Assembly (NCBI GenBank): GCA_019635875.1
Contig: JAHBYP010000002.1
Location: 620,001 to 684,000 of the forward strand
Length of the DNA stretch: 64,000 nucleotides
Reading direction: 5' to 3'
From: Alphaproteobacteria bacterium
GTDB taxonomy: Bacteria > Pseudomonadota > Alphaproteobacteria > Reyranellales > Reyranellaceae
Both the position numbers and the translations under genes were made by a program. Numbering within the stretch: position 1 is the first letter of the stretch; each line of letters opens with the position of its first letter. The notes beneath the pieces are model-generated. The model searched no databases, was not told the origin of the DNA, and worked only from the letters and a program-made list of their open reading frames with translations. Of the stretch, positions 33,422 through 52,618 are shown piece by piece.

Positions 33422-34155
33422 AGAGTCTCGTCGATCAGCAGGTCGGCGAGACGGGCGATGATGCGATCGGGTCGGACATCGCTGCCTTCGGGCAGGCCGT
33501 CGCCATCGGGGTCGTACCAGATGCCCCGCAGGCCCAGACGCTGCGGCGTGACGACCTCCCATTCGACGTTGTCGCCGACCATCCAGGCCTCGCGCGCGCT
33601 GCAGCCCAGCCTGCCCAGCGCGTGGTGATAGACGTCGGGCTCGGGCTTGCCGCGGCCGAACTCGCCTTCGATCTGGATGTGGTCGAAATGCCGCGCGAGA
33701 TCGAAGCGCTCGATCTTGGCGCGCTGGACCTCGCCGCGGCCGTTGGTCACCAGCGCCAGCTTCACCCCGGCCTGGCGCAGCGTCGCCAATGTGTCGTGGG
33801 CGTCGGGATAGAGCCGGTACTCGGCCCGCCGCATCTCGGTGAAGGCATCGGCGATCTCGGCCGCGAGATCATCGTCGCGATGGCCCAGGCGCGCGAAGCC
33901 ACCCTGGACGACCAGCCGCCGCGCGCCAGCGATGTCGATGCGCCAGCGCGCCGCCTCGAGCGGGTCCTTCCAGAAGGCGTTGGCCGACGCCACGATGGCA
34001 TCCCTGACGGCATCGACATCGGCGCCGGGCACACCGTTCGCCAGCGTATCGCGGTAGCGCGCCAGCAGGCGGCCCCATGCCTCGACCGGCCTGGCGTAGG
34101 CACGGATGATCGTGTCGTCGAGATCGAAGAGGATGGCCGCCGGCAGATGCTTCAT
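33406..34155 (-). CDS. HAD-superfamily hydrolase (phosphatase-like)
   Basis: 249 residues with all four HAD motifs: FDLDDT (nucleophile Asp11 and acid Asp13), LVTNGRG, a Lys in RGKPEPDVYH, and VGDNVEWEV. The cap domain (~20-110) is helical. Substrate class cannot be read from sequence; members are often small-molecule phosphatases or 2-haloacid dehalogenase-like enzymes. Its end overlaps the repeat region at 33393-33421. The hisE gene starts 457 bases upstream on the same strand and ends 52 bases before this start. Confidence 0.88.
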   Translation of the reverse strand: MKHLPAAILFDLDDTIIRAYARPVEAWGRLLARYRDTLANGVPGADVDAVRDAIVASANAFWKDPLEAARWRIDIAGARRLVVQGGFARLGHRDDDLAAEIADAFTEMRRAEYRLYPDAHDTLATLRQAGVKLALVTNGRGEVQRAKIERFDLARHFDHIQIEGEFGRGKPEPDVYHHALGRLGCSAREAWMVGDNVEWEVVTPQRLGLRGIWYDPDGDGLPEGSDVRPDRIIARLADLLIDETLPSRA

Positions 34156-41852: not shown

Positions 41853-42560
41853 TCAGGCGCCGAGCTCAGCGCGCAGGCGGTCGAGATCGTCGAGATGCTC
41901 GGAATCGTGCGCCAGCATCGCCGACACCAGACCGTCGATTTCGATCTCGGTCGTGCCCGCCATCAGGCCTGTCCGCCGACGCTCGCCCGGTTGGAGCTTG
42001 CCGAGCCGGCCGACGATCGCCCAGCGCGTCGCGGTGAAGGCGTCGAGCGCGGCGCGCGCGTCCTGCGCCGGATAGTCGCGCTCGATGGCGAGCTTCTCGC
42101 CGTCGATGTCGGGCAGCACCGGGCGGTCCTCTTCCAGCATGCGATCGAGGCGCACGCGGTAGCCATCGCCGTCGATATCGCGCAGATGGCAGACATGCTC
42201 GACGAGCGAGAAGCCGCCCGCCTTCGGATGGAGACGCCACGAAGTCTCGGGGATCGCTTCCAGGATCGCCTTCAGCCGTCCCGGCATCGCCGCCAGCAGC
42301 GCGTTGGCGCGGCCCGGCACCTCGTCGCGGCGCGGCATCAGCTGCTCGATCAGGCAATCGAGCACGCGAGCCAGACGGGCGACGATCTCCAGCGTGCCGG
42401 TGCGCTCGCCGGCCTCGATCTGCGCCAGGTAAGCCCGGCTGATGCCGACGACCAGCGCCAGCTGGGTCTGGGTGAAGCCGCGGAACTCGCGCCAGGCGCG
42501 GACCGGATGGAAGCCGGCATCGCAACGTTCGGAGACAGGCATCGGAAGCGTATGTAGCAT
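41853..42560 (-). CDS. XRE helix-turn-helix / DinB fusion regulator
   Basis: 235 residues. Residues ~18-75 form a Cro/XRE helix-turn-helix (WREFRGFTQTQLALVVGIS, YLAQIEAGERTGTL). Residues ~95-230 form a DinB-like four-helix bundle with SWRLHPKAGGFSLVEHVCHLRD, AMLAHDSEHLDDL and His positions that bind a metal in the DinB superfamily. Regulators with a thiol- or metal-binding DinB domain are rare. The ATG at 42560 sits inside a perfect 17-bp palindrome (42553-42569), suggesting self-repression. A start at the internal ATG 42542 is possible. Confidence 0.82.
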   Translation of the reverse strand: MLHTLPMPVSERCDAGFHPVRAWREFRGFTQTQLALVVGISRAYLAQIEAGERTGTLEIVARLARVLDCLIEQLMPRRDEVPGRANALLAAMPGRLKAILEAIPETSWRLHPKAGGFSLVEHVCHLRDIDGDGYRVRLDRMLEEDRPVLPDIDGEKLAIERDYPAQDARAALDAFTATRWAIVGRLGKLQPGERRRTGLMAGTTEIEIDGLVSAMLAHDSEHLDDLDRLRAELGA

Positions 42561-42654: not shown

Positions 42655-43389
42655 ATGCTGCTGAAGGATCGGGTCCTGCTGGTCACCCACGTGCGCCGCT
42701 TCGCCGGCCACGGCGTGTCGCGCTTGGCGCTCGCCGAGGGCGCGAAGGTGATCGCCCATGACGAGAGCTTCACCTCGGCTGTCAAACGCAAGGCCTACGA
42801 GTCCGAATTCCCCGGCGCGCGGGCGATCGCCGCGCAGGAGCCGGCGAAGATCGTCGAAGGGGCGTTGAAGCTCGCCGCGCGCATCGACGCGCTGGTCAGC
42901 AACGACGCCTATCCGGCGACGCGCGCAGCGCTCGCCGAGGCGCGCATGGAGGATTTCCGCGCCGCGCTGGAGACGATGGTGGTCAAGCCGTTCGAGCTGG
43001 CGCAGAAGGTGGTGCCCGTCATGCGCCGGCAGAAGGCGGGGCGCATCGTCTTCGTGTCGTCGGCCGCGCCGTTGCGCGGCATTGCCAACTACTCGATGTA
43101 TGTCTCGGCGCGCGCCGGCACGCTGGGCCTCGTGCAATCGCTGGCCAAGGAGCTCGGCCGCGACAACATCACGGTCAATGCCGTGGGCTCGAACTATGTC
43201 GAGAACCCCGACTACTTCCCGCCCTCTCTGCTGGCGAATGCCGAGGCGATGAAGAAGATGACGGCACAGATCCCGCTGGGACGTCTGGGCAAGCCCGAGG
43301 AGCTGGCGGCGGCGGTCTGCTTCCTGTGCTCCGACGGCGCCGGCTTCGTCACCGGCCACACCCTGGCACATGCAGGAGGCTGGGCATGA
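42655..43389 (+). CDS. Halohydrin dehalogenase-like short-chain dehydrogenase
   Basis: 244 residues of the SDR fold with the marks of halohydrin dehalogenases, not NAD(P)-dependent SDRs. The catalytic triad is Ser136, Tyr149, Arg153 (S-x12-Y-x3-R; Arg replaces the usual Lys). The cofactor glycine motif is replaced by T-x4-F-x-G (Thr11, Phe16, Gly18), which forms the halide/nucleophile site. HDESF, QEPAKIVEGA, LVSNDAY and SYMYVSARAG-like YSMYVSARAG also match HheC-type enzymes. The expected reaction is reversible ring closure of vicinal haloalcohols to epoxides. It starts with ATG 42655 without a clear ribosome site, between the XRE-DinB gene and phosphofructokinase. Confidence 0.85.
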   Translation: MLLKDRVLLVTHVRRFAGHGVSRLALAEGAKVIAHDESFTSAVKRKAYESEFPGARAIAAQEPAKIVEGALKLAARIDALVSNDAYPATRAALAEARMEDFRAALETMVVKPFELAQKVVPVMRRQKAGRIVFVSSAAPLRGIANYSMYVSARAGTLGLVQSLAKELGRDNITVNAVGSNYVENPDYFPPSLLANAEAMKKMTAQIPLGRLGKPEELAAAVCFLCSDGAGFVTGHTLAHAGGWA

Positions 43390-43486: not shown

Positions 43487-44578
43487 ATGAAACCGAAGAA
43501 GAAGCGCACCGGCCGGATCGGCCTGCTGACCAGTGGCGGCGATTGCGCCGGTCTCAACGCCGTGATCCGCGCCGTGGTACGCCGCGCCGTCGACGGCCAC
43601 GGCTGGGATGTGATCGGCATCCGCAAGGGCACGCACGGCCTGCTGGCGCGCCCGGTCGAGGCCGACGAGCTGCGCCCCGGCGCCGACGATGCATCGCTGT
43701 TGCGCCTGGGCGGCACGATCCTGGGCACCACCAACAAGGGCGATCCCTTCGCCTTCCCGATGCCCGACGGCTCGCTGAAGGACCGTTCGCAGGAGATCGT
43801 CGAGGGTTTCCACGCGCTCGATCTCGACGCGCTGATCGGCGTCGGCGGCGACGGCAGCCTGGAGATCCTCTCCAAGCTCGCCAAGCAGGGCAATATTCCC
43901 TTCGTCGGCATTCCCAAGACGATCGACAACGACGTGGCGCGTACCGAGCGCGCGGTGGGCTTCGCCACCGCCGTGGCCACGGCGACCGAGGCGCTCGATC
44001 GCCTGCAGCCCACCGCGGCGAGCCACGATCGCGTGATGATCCTGGAGGTGATGGGCCGCGACGCCGGGCACATCGCCATCGCCGCGGGCATCGCCGGCGG
44101 CGCCGACATCGTGCTGATTCCGGAGATCACCTGGACGTTTGACGCGGTGTCGCACCACGTGCGCGAGCTGCGCGTCGTCGGCCGCGACTTCGCGCTGGTC
44201 GTGGTGGCCGAGGCGGCGCGCCCCTCGGGCAGCGACGCCACGGCGGTGAAGGATGCCGGCGGCATCGGCCACTGGCTGGCGGCGAAGCTGGGCGCGGCCA
44301 CCGGCGCGGAGACGCGCGTGACGGTGCTGGGCCACGTACAGCGCGGCGGCACGCCGCTGGCCGAGGATCGCCTGCTGGGCTCGGTGCTGGGCGTGCATGC
44401 CGTCGATCTCGTGGCTGAGGGCCGCACCGGCCGCATGGTGGCGTGGTCGAACCGCGAGGTGATCGACGTGCCGCTCGACGAGGTCGTGGGCGTGCCGCAT
44501 GTCGTCGATCCCAACAGCCCGCTGGTGCGCACAGCACGCGGTCTGGGCATCTGCCTGGGCGATGATGCGGTGAGTTGA
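43487..44578 (+). CDS. 6-phosphofructokinase (GGDGS/PKTIDND type)
   Basis: 363 residues from ATG 43487, with GAGGGG upstream; the upstream in-frame frame overlaps the previous gene. PFK motifs are LLTSGGDCAGLNAVIRA, GGDGS (Gly123 at the position that is Asp in PPi-dependent enzymes), PKTIDNDV (Lys144 where ATP-type E. coli PFK has Gly), and EVMGRDAGHIA. Gly plus Lys is the combination found in some ATP-using PFKs of the long-group lineage, so ATP use is likely but not certain. It phosphorylates fructose 6-phosphate. Confidence 0.9.
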   Translation: MKPKKKRTGRIGLLTSGGDCAGLNAVIRAVVRRAVDGHGWDVIGIRKGTHGLLARPVEADELRPGADDASLLRLGGTILGTTNKGDPFAFPMPDGSLKDRSQEIVEGFHALDLDALIGVGGDGSLEILSKLAKQGNIPFVGIPKTIDNDVARTERAVGFATAVATATEALDRLQPTAASHDRVMILEVMGRDAGHIAIAAGIAGGADIVLIPEITWTFDAVSHHVRELRVVGRDFALVVVAEAARPSGSDATAVKDAGGIGHWLAAKLGAATGAETRVTVLGHVQRGGTPLAEDRLLGSVLGVHAVDLVAEGRTGRMVAWSNREVIDVPLDEVVGVPHVVDPNSPLVRTARGLGICLGDDAVS

Positions 44579-44719: not shown

Positions 44720-46294
44720 ATGAGCCTGGGCCGCGCCATTGCCGTGGTTGGCGGCTTCACCATGCTGAGCCGCCTGCTGGGCTTCGCGCGTGACATGGCG
44801 ATGTCGCGCATCCTGGGCGCCGGGCCGGTGGCCGACGCCTTCTTCATCGCGTTCAAGCTGCCGAACTTCTTCCGCCGCCTGTTCGCCGAGGGCGCCTTCG
44901 CGTCGGCCTTCGTGCCGCTGTTCGCCGCCGAGCGCGCTCGCAGCGGCATCGAGGAAGCCGCCGCCTTCGCGCGCGAGGCGCAGGCGGCGCTGCTGGCGGT
45001 ACTGCTGCCGTTCACGGCGCTGGCGATCATCGCCATGCCCGTCGTCGTGGCACTGATCGCGCCCGGCCTGCGCTCCTCGCCGCAGACCATCGCCTGGGCG
45101 ATCGACTTCGGCCGCATCGCCTTTCCCTATCTGGTGTTCATCTCGCTGGTCTCGCTCTACGGCGGCGCGCTCAACGGGCTGGAGCGCTTCGGCCACGCCG
45201 CCGCGACGCAGATGCTGCTGAACGTCGTGCTGCTGGTTGCGCTGTTCGGGCTCACGCCGCTCATGCCCAATCCCGGCTACGCGCTGGCGATCGGCGTGTT
45301 CACGGCCGGCATCGTGCAATGGCTCTGGCTGCTCGACGCCTGCCGCCGCGCCGGCCTGTCTATGCTGCCGCGCTGGCCGATTCTCAGCCCGCGCATCCGC
45401 CGCATGCTGACCCTGGTCGTGCCGGCGGCGATCGGCGCCGGCGCCTTCCAGATCAACGCCATGCTCGACGTGGTGTGGGCCTCGTTCATGGCCGACGGCA
45501 CGATCTCCGTTCTCTACTACGCCGACCGCATCAACCAGCTGCCGCTGGGTGTGGTCGGCATCGCCATCGGCACCTCGCTGCTGCCCCTGCTGTCGCGACA
45601 GCTGCGCGACGGCTCGACCGAGGCCGCGATGGCCAACCAGAACCGCGCCATCGAGTTCGGCCTGCTGTTCTCGCTGCCGGCGGCGGCGGCGCTGTCGGTC
45701 GCGGCGCTGCCGATCATGGCCACCCTGTTCGAAGGCGGAAAGTTCGGCCCGGCCGAGAGCGCGCGCGCCGCCGCGGCGCTGTCCGCCTTCGCCGCCGGCC
45801 TGCCCGCCTTCATTCTGGTCAAGGCGCTCACGACCGGCTTCTACGCCCGCGAGGACACGCGCACGCCGCTCAACGTGGCGCTCGCCAGCATCGCGCTCAA
45901 CATCGCGCTCAACGTGATCTTCCTGTGGAGCACGAGCCTGCAGCATGTCGGCGTCGCCCTGGCCTCCTCGCTGTCGGGCTGGCTCAACGCGCTACTGCTG
46001 GGCTGGCTGCTGGTCCGCCGCGGGCACCTCGTCGCCGACCCACGCCTGAAGTCGCGCGCCTGGCGCATGCTGGTCGCGGCGCTGGTCATGGGCCTCGTTC
46101 TGTGGCTGGCGCTGCGCTATGCCGGCGGCGCCTTCGCGACGCCGGGCGCGATGCGGTGGCTGGCGCTGGCGGCGCTGTGCCTCGGCGGCGCCGCGCTCTA
46201 TGGCGCCGTCGGCGCGGCGCTGGGCATCGTGCGCCTTTCCGAGATCCGCGGCCTGCTGCGCCGTCAGCCCGGCGTGCGTCCTGAGATCGACTGA
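44720..46294 (+). CDS. murJ: Lipid II flippase MurJ
   Basis: 524 residues from ATG 44720; a longer frame from 44624 runs through the palindrome and is rejected. About 14 membrane helices of the MOP superfamily are visible. It starts SLGRAIAVVGGFTMLSRLLGFARD with the usual ARD (charged pocket) and continues FFIAFKLPNFFRRLFAEGAF. It moves lipid II to the periplasmic face for peptidoglycan synthesis. Its end overlaps the end of the convergent UPF0280 gene by 31 bases. Confidence 0.96.
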   Translation: MSLGRAIAVVGGFTMLSRLLGFARDMAMSRILGAGPVADAFFIAFKLPNFFRRLFAEGAFASAFVPLFAAERARSGIEEAAAFAREAQAALLAVLLPFTALAIIAMPVVVALIAPGLRSSPQTIAWAIDFGRIAFPYLVFISLVSLYGGALNGLERFGHAAATQMLLNVVLLVALFGLTPLMPNPGYALAIGVFTAGIVQWLWLLDACRRAGLSMLPRWPILSPRIRRMLTLVVPAAIGAGAFQINAMLDVVWASFMADGTISVLYYADRINQLPLGVVGIAIGTSLLPLLSRQLRDGSTEAAMANQNRAIEFGLLFSLPAAAALSVAALPIMATLFEGGKFGPAESARAAAALSAFAAGLPAFILVKALTTGFYAREDTRTPLNVALASIALNIALNVIFLWSTSLQHVGVALASSLSGWLNALLLGWLLVRRGHLVADPRLKSRAWRMLVAALVMGLVLWLALRYAGGAFATPGAMRWLALAALCLGGAALYGAVGAALGIVRLSEIRGLLRRQPGVRPEID

Positions 46295-47130
46295 GCGGCG
46301 CCGAGCAGACGCCACCGCCCCTGCAGCGCCAGCGCGGCGCCCTCGATCAAGCCGCGTGCATGGAGATCTAGCGCCCGCTCCAAGCCGCGATCGAGCGCCA
46401 TGGCGAGTACATCGCCCGGCAGAGGTCCGACGGTGACAGTCACCGGCCGCGCACCGAGATCGGTATCGTCGTCGATCGCGTTCGCCGGCCGTCGCTCGAT
46501 GGCGGGATGCTCCGCATCGACGGCATTGGCGACGATGGTCGCCGCCGCGTCGGCCATCGCCGCCGTGCGCGCCAGGACAGTCACCGAATCGGCGATGCCC
46601 AGCGAGAACGAACGCCCGCGCCAGCCGCTGGTCGCGAGTCCGCGCACCGGCAACTCCGACCGCAGCTCGACGCCGCCATCGAGTTCCGGCGCATCGACAT
46701 TGGCCACGATCGCGGCGCGCAGCGCATGGCCCGGCGCGAGGTGAACCGCGATGTCGCCGCCGTTGTTGACGTAGGCCTTCATCAGGTCGCGTCCGCGCAC
46801 CAGCGCGGCCAGCACCTCGTCCGCCACCGATCCGGCCACCGCCGCCATCGGCGTGATGAAGATGTCGCGGTAAGGCCAGACGGCATCGGCCATCCGGCGC
46901 GCGACGGGACCGTTGAGCACAGGCGGTGCACCGCCGACCGGGCTGCGCAGGATCGGCAGCTCGGACACGAGCGTGGCGAGGATGTCGTCGAAGCGTTCGA
47001 TGGCCTGTCGATAGGATGCCTCGACCTCGGCCTGTGCACCGAAGGCTTCGATGATCAGGTCGATGGGGCCGTGCTGCAGATGCAGCCGCCCACCGGGCAG
47101 GCGCGCTGAGATCGGGCCGCCGGGACGCAC
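46264..47130 (-). CDS. UPF0280 family protein
   Basis: 288 residues with a GTG start. Family marks are HGPIDLIIEAFG, YRQAIERFDDIL, MADAVWPYRDIFITPMAAVAGSVADE and YVNNGGDIAVHLAPGH, which correspond to UPF0280. The fold is related to ApbE-type flavin transferases, but the activity is not known. It is the last gene of the minus-strand cluster with the 6-hydroxynicotinate reductase homologue, separated from it by the repeat element at 47143-47394. Confidence 0.88.
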   Translation of the reverse strand: MRPGGPISARLPGGRLHLQHGPIDLIIEAFGAQAEVEASYRQAIERFDDILATLVSELPILRSPVGGAPPVLNGPVARRMADAVWPYRDIFITPMAAVAGSVADEVLAALVRGRDLMKAYVNNGGDIAVHLAPGHALRAAIVANVDAPELDGGVELRSELPVRGLATSGWRGRSFSLGIADSVTVLARTAAMADAAATIVANAVDAEHPAIERRPANAIDDDTDLGARPVTVTVGPLPGDVLAMALDRGLERALDLHARGLIEGAALALQGRWRLLGAAQSISGRTPG

Positions 47131-47411: not shown

Positions 47412-48860
47412 CTAGTTCGACGACACCGGCCATGGGTTGCCGGCGCGCGAGGGGCGGCGGTCGAGGCGATTGGCGGCCAGCGCCTCGTCGAGCGACACGA
47501 CGCGACCGGTATAACCGCCCAGCGCCTCGTAATGGTCGCGCCGCATGGTGAACTCCAGCGGCGCCACCAGCGCCGGCGTCGGCACGTGGCCGAAAGCGTT
47601 GTCGGGCATGCGCGCGACATCGACCATGTAGGTGATGCCGCCGCCCGGCCAGACGAAGACCGGAGCGCCGCCGCAGGTCACGCGGGTCAGCGCGTCCTTG
47701 ACGCTCAAGGTCAGGCGCACCGGGTTCTCGGTGACGCCGGCGCGCAGCGAGCCGCCGGCGCCGGCCATGAACATCACCGTGCACAAGGCCGGCTCGCAAT
47801 TCTCGGCGATACGCTCGACCACCTTGCGCACCGGGGGCGGCATCTCGGCGGGCTGCGGGCTGAGTGCCTCGTCGAGCACGAACCACGCCGAATGCTCGCC
47901 GGTGGTCGAGACCATCAGCAGGCGCAGCCCAGGCCAGGCGGCCTTGGGATCGATCTTCTCGAGGATCTCCAGCGGATCGGCGATATCGGTGCCGCCCCAG
48001 CCCAGCCCCGGCTCGGCCACCTGGAAGTAGCGGCCCGGCGTCGAGCGGCGGCCGCGCACGCGGATGCCGGCGGGCGGCATGTCGAGGAACTTGCCGCCCT
48101 GGTGCTCCGACAGCACGCCGGTGATGTGGTCGTCGACGACGATCACCTCGTCGACATGGCCGTGCCATTGCGGCGCGAACATGCCGATGGTGGCCGAGCC
48201 GCAGCCCACGCGCATGCGCTCCTCGCGCTGGCCGTTGACCACCGGCGGCTGGCCCGCCTGGACCACGACAGAGGCGCCGCCATCGATGACGAGCTCGACC
48301 GGCTTGCGGTTGCACAGCGCCAGCATGGCGTCGCAGGTGACGACGCCCTCCTTCTTGCTGCCGCCGGTGAGATGGCGCACACCGCCCAGCGACAGCATCT
48401 GCGAGCCGTACTCGGCCGTGGTGACGTGGCCGATCTGCTCGCCCTCGACGCGCACCGCGGCCTGCTCGGGCCCGAGGAAGCGGTCGGTGTCGATCTTCAC
48501 CTTGACGCCGCAGTAGCTGAAGATGCCTTCGGTGACGACGGTCACCATGTCGACGCCGTCATGCTGGCTGGCGACGATGAAGGGCGCCGGCTTGTAGTCG
48601 GGATAGGTCGTGGTCGCGCCGATGCCGGTGACGAAGGTACCCTCCGGCCGGCCAAGCTCGCCGCTCCAGCTCTCGGCGCCCTGCGCGAAGGGCACCAGCG
48701 GCGCCTGCGTGCGTTCGATCACGACCAGCGAATCGACGCGCACCAGATGGCCGTTCTCGTTGGCGTAGCGGTCGCAGGCACCGACCTTGCCGGGCCGGAT
48801 GCGACAGAGCACCGGGCAGGCGTCGCAGCGCACCACGCCGTCTGACACGAGCTCAGACAT
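47412..48860 (-). CDS. 6-hydroxynicotinate reductase homologue (iron-sulfur)
   Basis: 482 residues from ATG 48860, near AAAGGAGGCC in reverse context; the longer frame passes through a repeat. The N-terminal Cys cluster, Cys12, Cys15, Cys19 and Cys29 (RCDACPVLC, VGACDRY), suits a 4Fe-4S centre, and the remaining sequence matches 6-hydroxynicotinate reductases (TYPDYKPAPFIVASQHDGVD, VTEGIFSYCGVKVKID). The enzyme reduces 6-hydroxynicotinate to 1,4,5,6-tetrahydro-6-oxonicotinate with reduced ferredoxin. The upstream neighbour on the same strand is a Mo-hydroxylase, as nicotinate degradation would need. Substrate specificity is not proven. Confidence 0.82.
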   Translation of the reverse strand: MSELVSDGVVRCDACPVLCRIRPGKVGACDRYANENGHLVRVDSLVVIERTQAPLVPFAQGAESWSGELGRPEGTFVTGIGATTTYPDYKPAPFIVASQHDGVDMVTVVTEGIFSYCGVKVKIDTDRFLGPEQAAVRVEGEQIGHVTTAEYGSQMLSLGGVRHLTGGSKKEGVVTCDAMLALCNRKPVELVIDGGASVVVQAGQPPVVNGQREERMRVGCGSATIGMFAPQWHGHVDEVIVVDDHITGVLSEHQGGKFLDMPPAGIRVRGRRSTPGRYFQVAEPGLGWGGTDIADPLEILEKIDPKAAWPGLRLLMVSTTGEHSAWFVLDEALSPQPAEMPPPVRKVVERIAENCEPALCTVMFMAGAGGSLRAGVTENPVRLTLSVKDALTRVTCGGAPVFVWPGGGITYMVDVARMPDNAFGHVPTPALVAPLEFTMRRDHYEALGGYTGRVVSLDEALAANRLDRRPSRAGNPWPVSSN

Positions 48861-48882
48861 GGCAGCACCAAAAGGAGGCCTT

Positions 48883-49008
48883 CCCTTCCCCCGGAGGGGG
48901 AAGGTGCCCGAAGGGCGGATGGGGGATGTCGAAGACGGACACCGATTTCGTTGCAGCATCCCCCATCCGTCGCGCTACGCGCGCCACCTTCCCCCTCCGG
49001 GGGAAGGT
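48883..49008. repeat. Family B palindromic repeat, copy 2
   Basis: About 126 bases with terminal CCTTCCCCCGGAGGGGGAAGG-like ends (two palindromes) and a central GGATGTCGAAGACGG...CGTTGCAGCATCC segment. The reverse complement matches the central part of 47191-47340 and 63845-63965. It fills most of the gap between the Mo-hydroxylase end and the reductase start. Confidence 0.8.
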
Positions 49009-49022
49009 AGTGGGTGACATAC

Positions 49023-51770
49023 TCATGCTGTGCCTCCCCGCAGGGCCGCGCGCAGGCGATGCGGCAGCACCGGCACCTGGCGCATGCGCACCCCGGTCGC
49101 GTCGTGGATCGCGCCGAGGATCGCCGGCGCCGTCGGCACGAGGCCCGGCTCGCCGACACCCTTGGCGCCCGAGGGGCCGAGCGGGTCGGGATCCTCGATC
49201 AGCATCACCTCGATCCGCGGCATGTCTCCGACCGTGGGAATCAGGTAGTCGTGCAGATTCTCGGTGCGGCCGGGGATGTATTCCTCCATCAGCGCCAGGC
49301 CGAGACCCTGCGCGATGCCGCCATGGATCTGGCCCTCGACCTGCAGCGGGTTGATGGCGCGCCCGACATCGTGCGCGGCGGCCATGCGCAGCACCTTCGT
49401 CGTGCCCAGCTCGACATCGACCTCGACCAGGGCGATCTGCGCGGCGAAGGCGTAGCTTGCGTAGGGCACGCCCTGGCCGTCGGCGTCGAGCGGCGAGGTC
49501 GGCGGATCGAAGGTGCCTTCGCCGATCATCACGTCGCCGTCGGCATCGGGCGCCAGGCCGCGCAGGTCGATCGCGCGCGTGCTCTCGCCTTCGTGGACGA
49601 GCAGCGTCGCGTCGCGGATCGACAGCTCGGCATCGGCGCCGGCATTGGCCATGCGCAGGATGCGCGCGCGCAGGTCGCGGCCGGCCAGCTCGGCGGCCCT
49701 GCCTGATACGAAGGTCTGGCGCGAGGCCGAGGTCTTGCCCGCGTCGGCGGTGCGGTCGGTGTCGCCGGTGACCAGGCGAATGCGCGCGAACGGCAGGCCC
49801 AGCGCGTCAGCGGCGATCTGCGTCATGATGGTGTTGCTGCCCTGGCCGATATCGAGCGCGCCGCTGTAGAGCGTGACGCCGCCGTCGCGGCCGATGCCGA
49901 TACGCATGATCGAGGGGTTCGACATCGAGGTATTGCCGATGCCGTACCACATGCAGCCGATGCCGACGCCTCGCCGCGTCGCGCCCGGCCTGCGGTTGAA
50001 CGCGGCCGTCTCGGCCTTCCACTCGGCCCAGCGCTGCCGCAGCGCCTCGAGGCATTGCGCCAGGCCGGCCGAATGCGCAAGGCGCTGACCGGTGGCCGTG
50101 ATGTCGCCGACGCGCAGCGCGTTGCGGTGACGGAACTCGAGCCGGTCGATGCCCAGCCGGTCGGCGAGCGCGTCCATCATCGCCTCGTGCGCGATGGCCG
50201 ATTGCGGCACGCCGAAGCCGCGGAAGGCGCCGGCCGGCGGCCCGTTGGTGAACCACGCCGCGCCCCAGGTCCGCGCGTTGGGCACGCGATAGGGACCGGT
50301 GGCATGCACCGGCACGCGATTGGCGACGGTCGGTCCCCACGAGGCGTAGGCGCCGGTGTCGAAATCGGCGCGCGACTCGCAGGCGGTGAGCCGGCCCTCC
50401 GCGTCGCAGGCGAAGCGCGCCACGACCCGCGCGGGATGGCGCTTGGTGGTCGCCGCCATGCTCTCGGGCCGTGTGTAGACGCAGGCCACCGGGCGGCCGA
50501 ACGTCCACGCCGCCAGCGCGATCAAGGGCTGCACCGACTGGTCGAGCTTGCCGCCGAAGCCGCCGCCGCAGGCGCTGGGCACGATGCGCACCGCCGAGGT
50601 CGGCAGGCGCATCACGCTGGCGACCTCGTCGCGGTCCATGTACGGCGTCTGCGTCGTGACATGCACCTCGATGCGATCGCCGACGCGCCGCGCCCAGCCG
50701 GCTTCCGGCTCGATATAGGCGTGCTCGACGAACGTCGTTTCGAAGATGCCCTCGGCTACGGCCGCCGCCGAGGCGATCGCGGCATCGACATCGCCGCGCC
50801 GCACACCGCCCTCGATCAGCAGGTTGGCCGGCTTGTCCGCCTGCACCAGCGCCGCGCCCGTCGCGCGGGCGGCGTCGATGCCGAGGATCGGCTCCAGCTT
50901 AGTCCAGGCGATCGGCAGTTCCTGGTCGCGTACCGCAAGGACGGCATCGCGCGAACCGACCAGCGCCAGCACGGCCTCGCCGCGATAGCGCACGCGGCCG
51001 TCGGCGAGGACCGGCTGGTCCTTGATGTCTGGATAGATGCCGAAGCCGTTGAACGGCACGTCGGCGGCGGTGAGGATCGCGGTCAGGCCGCGCTTCGCCG
51101 TCGACAGGTCGCCAATGGTGAAGGTCGCGCTGTGATGCGGCGAGCGCACGATACGCAGCCACAGCGCGTCGGCGGGAATGCCATCGGCGCCGTAGATCTC
51201 CGAGCCATCGACCCGCGCCGCGCCATCGACGCGTGGCACGCGCGCGCCGACAGCTTCACCGACTTGCGGTGCGGGCGCGGAGGCGGCCGTCACGTCAAGC
51301 ACCGCCTCGACGATCTTCTGGTATCCCGTGCAGCGGCAGAGCGTGCCGCCCAGCGCGTCCTCGACCTGCGCGCGCGAGGGGTGGCGCTCGCGCCGCAGCA
51401 GGTCGGTCGCCGACATCAGCATGCCCGGCGTGCAGATGCCGCACTGCGCCGCGCCATGGACGAGGAAGGCGCGCTTGAGCGCATCGGCGCTCGCATCGAG
51501 GCCTTCGACGGTGGTCACCGTACGGCCCGCGACCTGGGCCACCGGCGTCAGGCAGGCGCAGACCTGCTGGCCGTCGAGCAGCACGGTGCAGGCGCCGCAA
51601 TCGCCGGCATCGCAGCCGATCTTGGTGCCGGTCAGGCCAAGCTCGTCGCGCAGCGCATGCGCCAGCCGCGTCAGCGGCGGCGATCTCAAGGCCCTCGCGC
51701 TGCCATTGATCGTGCAGCGCACCGTGTCGTCGGCCAGCGCCGGCGCGATGGCGAGATCGTCGGGCGTCAC
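49023..51770 (-). CDS. Molybdopterin hydroxylase, 2Fe-2S and Mo subunits fused (xanthine dehydrogenase family)
   Basis: 915 residues from the GTG at 51770, which overlaps the FAD-subunit stop by four bases (GTGA). Residues ~1-165 hold the plant-type 2Fe-2S site ([16 protein letters not shown]) and the second 2Fe-2S site ([18 protein letters not shown]). From ~185 on is the Mo-cofactor domain: [39 protein letters not shown] and [13 protein letters not shown], which holds the catalytic Glu. Relatives hydroxylate purines, nicotinate or other N-heterocycles. With 6-hydroxynicotinate reductase downstream, nicotinate is a good candidate substrate. The fused form is less common than separate subunits. 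Confidence 0.9.
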
Positions 51771-52618
51771 GACGACACCATGCTGCCGATTTCGTCCAGG
51801 GCCCGGCGAACCACCGTGAGCGCCGCATCGGCGCGGTAGTCCGCCGATGCCCGCACATCGTCGATCGGCGCCAGCGCCGCGAGGTATCGCGGCGTCACCC
51901 GATCGGCCAGCGTGGCGTCGGCGGGGCAGCCCAGCAGCGCCGCCTCCAGGTCGGGCAGGCGGCGCGCGACTTCCGAGCAGGCGCCGACCGCGACGCCGGC
52001 GCGCGTCACGCGGCCGGCCTCGTCGCATTCGATCGCGACGGCGACCATGGCGATGGAGATCACGAGGTAGCGGCGCGCGCCGAGCTTGATGAAGTGGCCG
52101 ACGGCGCGCGGCGAGCGCGGCTTGGGCACACGAATGGCCGTCACGAGCTCGATCGGCGAGCGACGCGTGCGGCGGTTGCCCAGGATGAACTCGGCGAGCG
52201 GAACGGCGACGACGCCGGCCATGCTGGCGAGCTCGACGGACGCGTCGAGGCTGAGCAGCGGCGGCACGCCGTCGGCCGCCGGCGAGGCATTGCAGAGATT
52301 GCCGGCGATCGTGCCGGCGTTCTGGATCTGCGCGCCGCCGACCTCGCGCGCCGCGCGCTTCAGCCCGTCGAACGGCGGCGGCAGGTCGCTGTTCACCAGG
52401 TCGGACCAGGTCGTGGTCGCGCCGATGCGCCAATGGCCGGGAGCATCGGCGATGCCGCGCAGGCCGGCGATGGCGGTGATGTCGAGGACGTCGTCGTCGA
52501 GCGGGCGGCCGACGCGGGCGGGATAGAAATCGGTGCCGCCGGCCAGCACCGTGAGCGGCCGGCTCGCCAATGCCTGGAGCGCCGCGTCGATGCTCGTCGG
52601 TCGCAGATAAGCCGCCAT
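51767..52618 (-). CDS. FAD-binding subunit of xanthine dehydrogenase-type hydroxylase
   Basis: 283 residues. The CO-dehydrogenase-flavoprotein/PCMH FAD domain shows VLAGGTDFYPARVG, AGTIAGNLCNASPAADG and LLSLDASVELAS, followed by the C-terminal CODH_FAD_C domain. It starts AAYLRPTSIDAALQAL, the normal start, and feeds electrons between 2Fe-2S centres and the acceptor. It is the first gene of the cluster and overlaps the Mo subunit gene by four bases. It has 69 bases upstream to the convergent MORN gene on the same strand. Confidence 0.93.
   Translation of the reverse strand: MAAYLRPTSIDAALQALASRPLTVLAGGTDFYPARVGRPLDDDVLDITAIAGLRGIADAPGHWRIGATTTWSDLVNSDLPPPFDGLKRAAREVGGAQIQNAGTIAGNLCNASPAADGVPPLLSLDASVELASMAGVVAVPLAEFILGNRRTRRSPIELVTAIRVPKPRSPRAVGHFIKLGARRYLVISIAMVAVAIECDEAGRVTRAGVAVGACSEVARRLPDLEAALLGCPADATLADRVTPRYLAALAPIDDVRASADYRADAALTVVRRALDEIGSMVSS

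Follow-up and report, generated by a model that had tools for sequence, protein, structure and literature searches.

A predicted halohydrin dehalogenase as a near-core chromosomal gene in an alphaproteobacterial order

Described halohydrin dehalogenases and the locus

Halohydrin dehalogenases (HHDHs), which interconvert halogenated alcohols and epoxides, have been described as limited to evolved bacterial enzymes for post-industrial halogenated xenobiotics (PMC9396626), and a review of the class left their physiological function open (PMC4989007). Two motifs define them, an N-terminal T-x4-F/Y-x-G and S-x12-Y-x3-R (PMC4989007). Here we analyse a gene that encodes both, located in a stretch of alphaproteobacterial DNA of 64,000 nucleotides (the window, by which we mean the whole stretch). 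Its features are as follows:

42655..43389, forward strand: predicted HHDH gene, 244 aa, ATG to TGA, the stop codon being counted in the coordinates.
42685..42708, forward strand: motif 1, T11-H-V-R-R-F16-A-G18, putative wall of the nucleophile or halide pocket, replacing the TGxxxGxG loop of SDR enzymes.
42898..42915, forward strand: S82-N83-D84-A85-Y86-P87, replacing the SDR NNAG; N83, D84, A85 and P87 are invariant (n=63).
43060..43113, forward strand: motif 2, the putative catalytic triad S136-x12-Y149-x3-R153, invariant in 63 sequences.
43186..43224, forward strand: G178-SNYVENPDYFPP to P190, aligned with the IGPNYL halide-binding loop of HheC, at the position of the SDR PG motif.

The closest solved structure is PDB 6A41 (labelled 'dehalogenase' and 'Dehalogenation enzyme'), which is 72% identical over all 244 residues and shares the triad, motif 1 and the halide loop. 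It comes from a different genus of the order, with TNVEKFAG in motif 1 against THVRRFAG here, and is 97.5% identical to a protein from a Reyranella MAG; our literature searches found neither a paper on 6A41 nor one on halohydrin dehalogenases from Reyranella. HheA (4Z9F/1ZMO) and HheC (1PWX) are more distant, at 36% and 34% identity respectively, and have in common with the window protein T-x4-F-x-G, S-x12-Y-x3-R and an HDxSF region followed by a Q-x-P stretch. However, they differ from it in several respects: (i) Pro175 of HheC corresponds to Ser179. (ii) The C-terminal extension with Trp249, found only in HheC (PMC4989007), is absent from the window protein, which ends in GGWA. (iii) The window gene is a near-core chromosomal gene of its order, in contrast to the HheA copy found on a plasmid, which is linked to an epoxide hydrolase and insertion sequences. 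Enzymes of the HheB and HheD types (4ZD6, 7B73, 8XXB) show 31–33% identity and share the triad, a similar loop of the N-x-x-x-N-P-x-Y-F-P type (best seen in 7B73 and 8XXB) and the GGW end, the differences being a shorter N-terminal region and a separate 100/100 clade.

Identity of the encoded protein

Motif 1 of the window protein starts at residue 11 and reads THVRRFAG (T11-x4-F16-x-G18), and motif 2 starts at residue 136 and reads SAAPLRGIANYSMYVSAR. In an alignment of 63 HHDH family members, F16 and G18 are invariant, position 11 is T or S, and the loop from G178 to P190 varies only at D186 (D/E). The three classical SDR signatures TGxxxGxG, NNAG and YxxxK are all absent, with THVRRFAG in place of the first, SNDA in place of the second and GSNYVENP in place of the PG loop; R153 is present where SDRs have Lys, and S-x12-Y-x3-K does not occur in the protein. 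Both motifs, correctly spaced, are found in 1 of the 401 open segments of at least 80 codons in the window, namely the HHDH reading frame, whose M1 aligns with M1 in nearly all homologues. Motif 2 is missing from all 29 further SDR-like proteins examined in this genome, most of which have TGxxxGxG and YxxxK. The strings HDESF (residues 35–39) and QEPA (61–64) are both also present in HheC 1PWX. The original prediction had named the intact S136/Y149/R153 triad in this reading frame, the Arg in place of the SDR Lys, the replacement of the NAD-binding glycine loop by T11/F16/G18 and the likeness of HDESF and QEPA to HheC-type enzymes, and the translation and motif positions agree with it on each point.

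Copies from the Vineibacter clade carry Ser at the Thr11 position, and the same change in HheC, T7S, keeps activity (PMC11976700). Three loci of this clade (L064, L067 and L068) have S-x4-F-x-G in motif 1, outside the published pattern.

Sequence searches against the PDB retrieved 6A41 as the best, full-length match (E 1.2e-113), followed by HheA (E=1.2e-45) and HheC (4.6e-41), the best FabG-type entry reaching 8.8e-30. We then considered a maximum-likelihood tree of the window protein, HheA, HheB, HheC, HheD-type structures, alphaproteobacterial relatives and eight classical SDRs, built without HheE, HheF and HheG, in which all HHDHs, the window protein included, split from the classical SDRs with 100/100 support. 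Members of the window's order group with one unplaced MAG in a separate clade (100/100), at the 36% and 34% identity to HheA and HheC given above and on a weak tree backbone; this lineage may already have an HheA number, among HheA10–A15. A nesting of HheA and HheC within alphaproteobacterial diversity is drawn in the tree and compatible with the data, but statistically unneeded, as a single clade of all alphaproteobacterial HHDH proteins is not rejected by the AU test (p 0.2).

The AlphaFold2 model (pLDDT 87.4, pTM 0.88) has an SDR-type Rossmann fold. With this model as query, ranks 1–12 of the Foldseek search are all 6A41, HheA or HheC-type entries, 6A41 being the best with a TM-score of 0.93, and FabG appears first at rank 13. 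Because FabG structures reach TM-scores of 0.80–0.85, the fold search alone gives no strong separation of HHDHs from SDRs, and it is the residue pattern and the tree that carry this argument. The model is also weaker near the pocket (block means of 60–76 for parts of residues 131–210), so the halide pocket is judged by sequence equivalence and not by geometry; from this equivalence, a halide pocket would replace the nicotinamide site. The original prediction had proposed a phylogeny with NAD(P)-dependent SDRs and an inspection of the nucleotide pocket as checks: the protein groups with the HHDHs (100/100), and a normal nucleotide pocket appears to be contradicted by the loss of the nucleotide-binding signatures. 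Since both published motifs, the phylogeny, the fold and model, and the nearest solved structure agree, the window protein is very probably a cofactor-independent HHDH of the A/C-like part of the family, as had been predicted, and is a recognisable member of an already known enzyme family.

By homology with HheC (mechanism in PMC4989007), Ser136 and Tyr149 would hold the substrate hydroxyl, Arg153 would lower the pKa of the tyrosine, and Tyr149 would take the proton; the alkoxide would displace the neighbouring halide, closing the epoxide, and the halide would leave into a pocket made by T11, F16, G18 and the backbone of S179-N180-Y181-V182, at the position of NAD(P) in ordinary SDRs. As the HHDH reaction is reversible, the enzyme might just as well use an anion to open epoxides. 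We infer from the same homology that the window protein is catalytic and would form epoxides from halohydrins in vivo.

Distribution and gene neighbourhood

What sets this locus apart is its distribution and not its motif: an enzyme class whose known members come mostly from degraders of pollutants is here encoded by a near-core chromosomal gene. The HHDH gene is found in 66 of the 75 genomes of the window's family, in all 5 genera and at 65–97% identity, and in 48 of the 51 good-quality genomes, apparent absences being inflated by incomplete MAGs; no other family of the order was part of the sample. Each carrying genome has one copy, except one with a second, partial match. Between close relatives, dN/dS (NG86) is 0.04–0.14, with dS estimates that depend on the method, and the gene is under strong purifying selection in the family. 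Its GC content is like that of the surrounding window and of related copies, and the clades of the HHDH tree match genera. In an even sample of 387 alphaproteobacterial genomes (cut-off E<=1e-40), relatives are present in 43, or in 37 of 381 once the six genomes from the window's family are set aside; the S-Y-R triad was found in a copy at every one of the 33 loci read from these 37, together with canonical motif 1 in the same copy at 27 of the 33. In the plasmid collection only one record matched at E<=1e-25, an HheA at 36% identity from Microbacterium, which lies next to genes for epoxide hydrolase and glycerol kinase and has IS transposases on both sides.

The idea that few genomic examples exist, advanced in the original prediction, is thus not sustained by these counts, which cover most of the family and about 10% of the other alphaproteobacteria sampled. 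Its further statement that no dehalogenation genes lie nearby holds within the window and fails for the genome, which elsewhere encodes three type-II haloacid dehalogenases and two EHN epoxide hydrolases, all above curated cut-offs. Within the window, positions 33517–33825 (reverse strand) give a weak, below-cut-off match to a type-II haloacid dehalogenase model, and are more likely to encode a generic HAD hydrolase.

The genes adjacent to the HHDH in the window are:

43488..44578, forward strand: ATP-dependent 6-phosphofructokinase, downstream of the HHDH gene, with a likely start ATG at about 43488.
41853..42560, reverse strand: HTH + DinB_2 protein, divergent from the HHDH gene and not a consistent neighbour in relatives.

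In the window's genus, the locus order is YgjP-like metallopeptidase, HHDH, ATP-dependent phosphofructokinase and MurJ. The phosphofructokinase also adjoins the HHDH gene in the Vineibacter clade, where nrdB and nrdA lie 3–5 kb beyond the pair, but not in Reyranella, and we read the adjacency as inherited position. In Reyranella-type loci, ubiB (47 of 55) and coaBC lie together on one side of the HHDH gene, and the opposite side frequently carries a dipeptide-type ABC transporter or nrdBA, while in other alphaproteobacterial families an alpha-glucosidase, SIR2, cytochrome b561, recJ or purEK lie near the HHDH gene (named by eye). These neighbourhoods are made of housekeeping genes, and epoxide hydrolase does not occur among the annotated genes that recur at the flanks (genes seen there once were annotated in part). 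YgjP, pfk, murJ, ubiB, coaBC, the ABC transporter, nrdBA and the neighbours in the other families were considered as operon partners and rejected, none being common to all loci; as there is no shared partner gene, we claim no pathway link, nor a functional one for the DinB_2 protein.

Further along the window, a 514-aa protein (47412–48956, reverse strand) has no match in Pfam (E<=1e-5) or NCBIfam (E<=1e-10) and is flanked by a PRK04334-like protein (46264–47127) and a xanthine-dehydrogenase-type molybdoenzyme (49023–52433); the three perhaps form one catabolic cluster.

Native role and competing explanations

An ordinary chromosomal gene in nearly all members of the order suggests a natural job that predates man-made pollutants. 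Judging from distribution only, we give a probability of about 0.6 to an old, lineage-wide native role in natural halohydrin or epoxide turnover, as opposed to recent degradation of industrial halohydrins. The pattern behind this estimate is a usually single-copy gene under purifying selection, with an invariant active site, housekeeping neighbourhoods and no recurrent epoxide hydrolase.

The alternative that survives best is that the HHDH scaffold runs another cofactor-free reaction on a housekeeping metabolite, such as the attack of an anion on an epoxide or some other elimination or addition, dehalogenation being a promiscuous side activity. The near-core presence, the housekeeping contexts and the lack of a recurrent epoxide hydrolase would also fit this explanation, and the review of the class points to possible further physiological functions of HHDHs and to an operon shared with an epoxide hydrolase for only two of the known genes (PMC4989007). 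However, at every motif residue the protein agrees with enzymes whose dehalogenase activity has been confirmed, as it was for 19 motif-selected enzymes (PMC4989007), and we regard this alternative as possible but rather doubtful.

It is very unlikely that the window gene was recently acquired for xenobiotic degradation, like the plasmid-borne or pollutant-enriched hheA and hheC. Classical HHDHs do come from pollutant-enrichment strains (PMC4989007), the Microbacterium HheA does lie on an IS-flanked plasmid segment with an epoxide hydrolase and glycerol kinase, and haloacid dehalogenases and epoxide hydrolases exist elsewhere in the genome, but the distribution largely contradicts this explanation: presence is order-wide, clades match genera, dN/dS is about 0.1, GC is like that of the window and of related copies, no epoxide hydrolase was recognised beside the gene, and the sole plasmid record at E<=1e-25 is the HheA at 36% identity. 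Finally, we give next to no weight to the idea of a usual NAD(P)-dependent SDR whose likeness to the HHDH motifs arose by chance since, although Pfam and NCBIfam go no further than generic SDR models (the NCBIfam scores falling far under cut-offs), the protein is split 100/100 from the eight classical SDRs, has lost the TGxxxGxG, NNAG, YxxxK and PG signatures, and yields both motifs in only 5 of 50,000 shuffles of its sequence.

A wider reading, which we put forward tentatively and would not quite call probable, is that HHDHs are an old chromosomal alphaproteobacterial family, near-core in this order and with a native substrate still unrecognised. If this were true, the pollutant-degrading HheA and HheC would be recruits from an old chromosomal pool and not post-industrial inventions. 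Because the copy is near-universal and apparently vertically kept in an order with cultured Reyranella and Vineibacter, the native function is directly testable. The HHDHs of this order would also add dozens more natural, partly motif-variant enzymes for biocatalysis.

Two further kinds of variant were seen among the loci. Five of them (L110, L111, L139, L140 and L071) carry a natural T-x4-W-x-G form of motif 1, with Trp replacing Phe/Tyr, which would escape a search that uses the published pattern. Three others (L132, L135 and L136, from genomes G321, G246 and G155) are tandem pairs of HHDH-like genes in small alphaproteobacterial genomes of 1.6–2.3 Mb, in which one copy has S-Y-R and the other S-Y-Q with a motif 1 that lacks the aromatic residue, so that the S-Y-Q copy looks, from its sequence, like a putative pseudo-enzyme partner.
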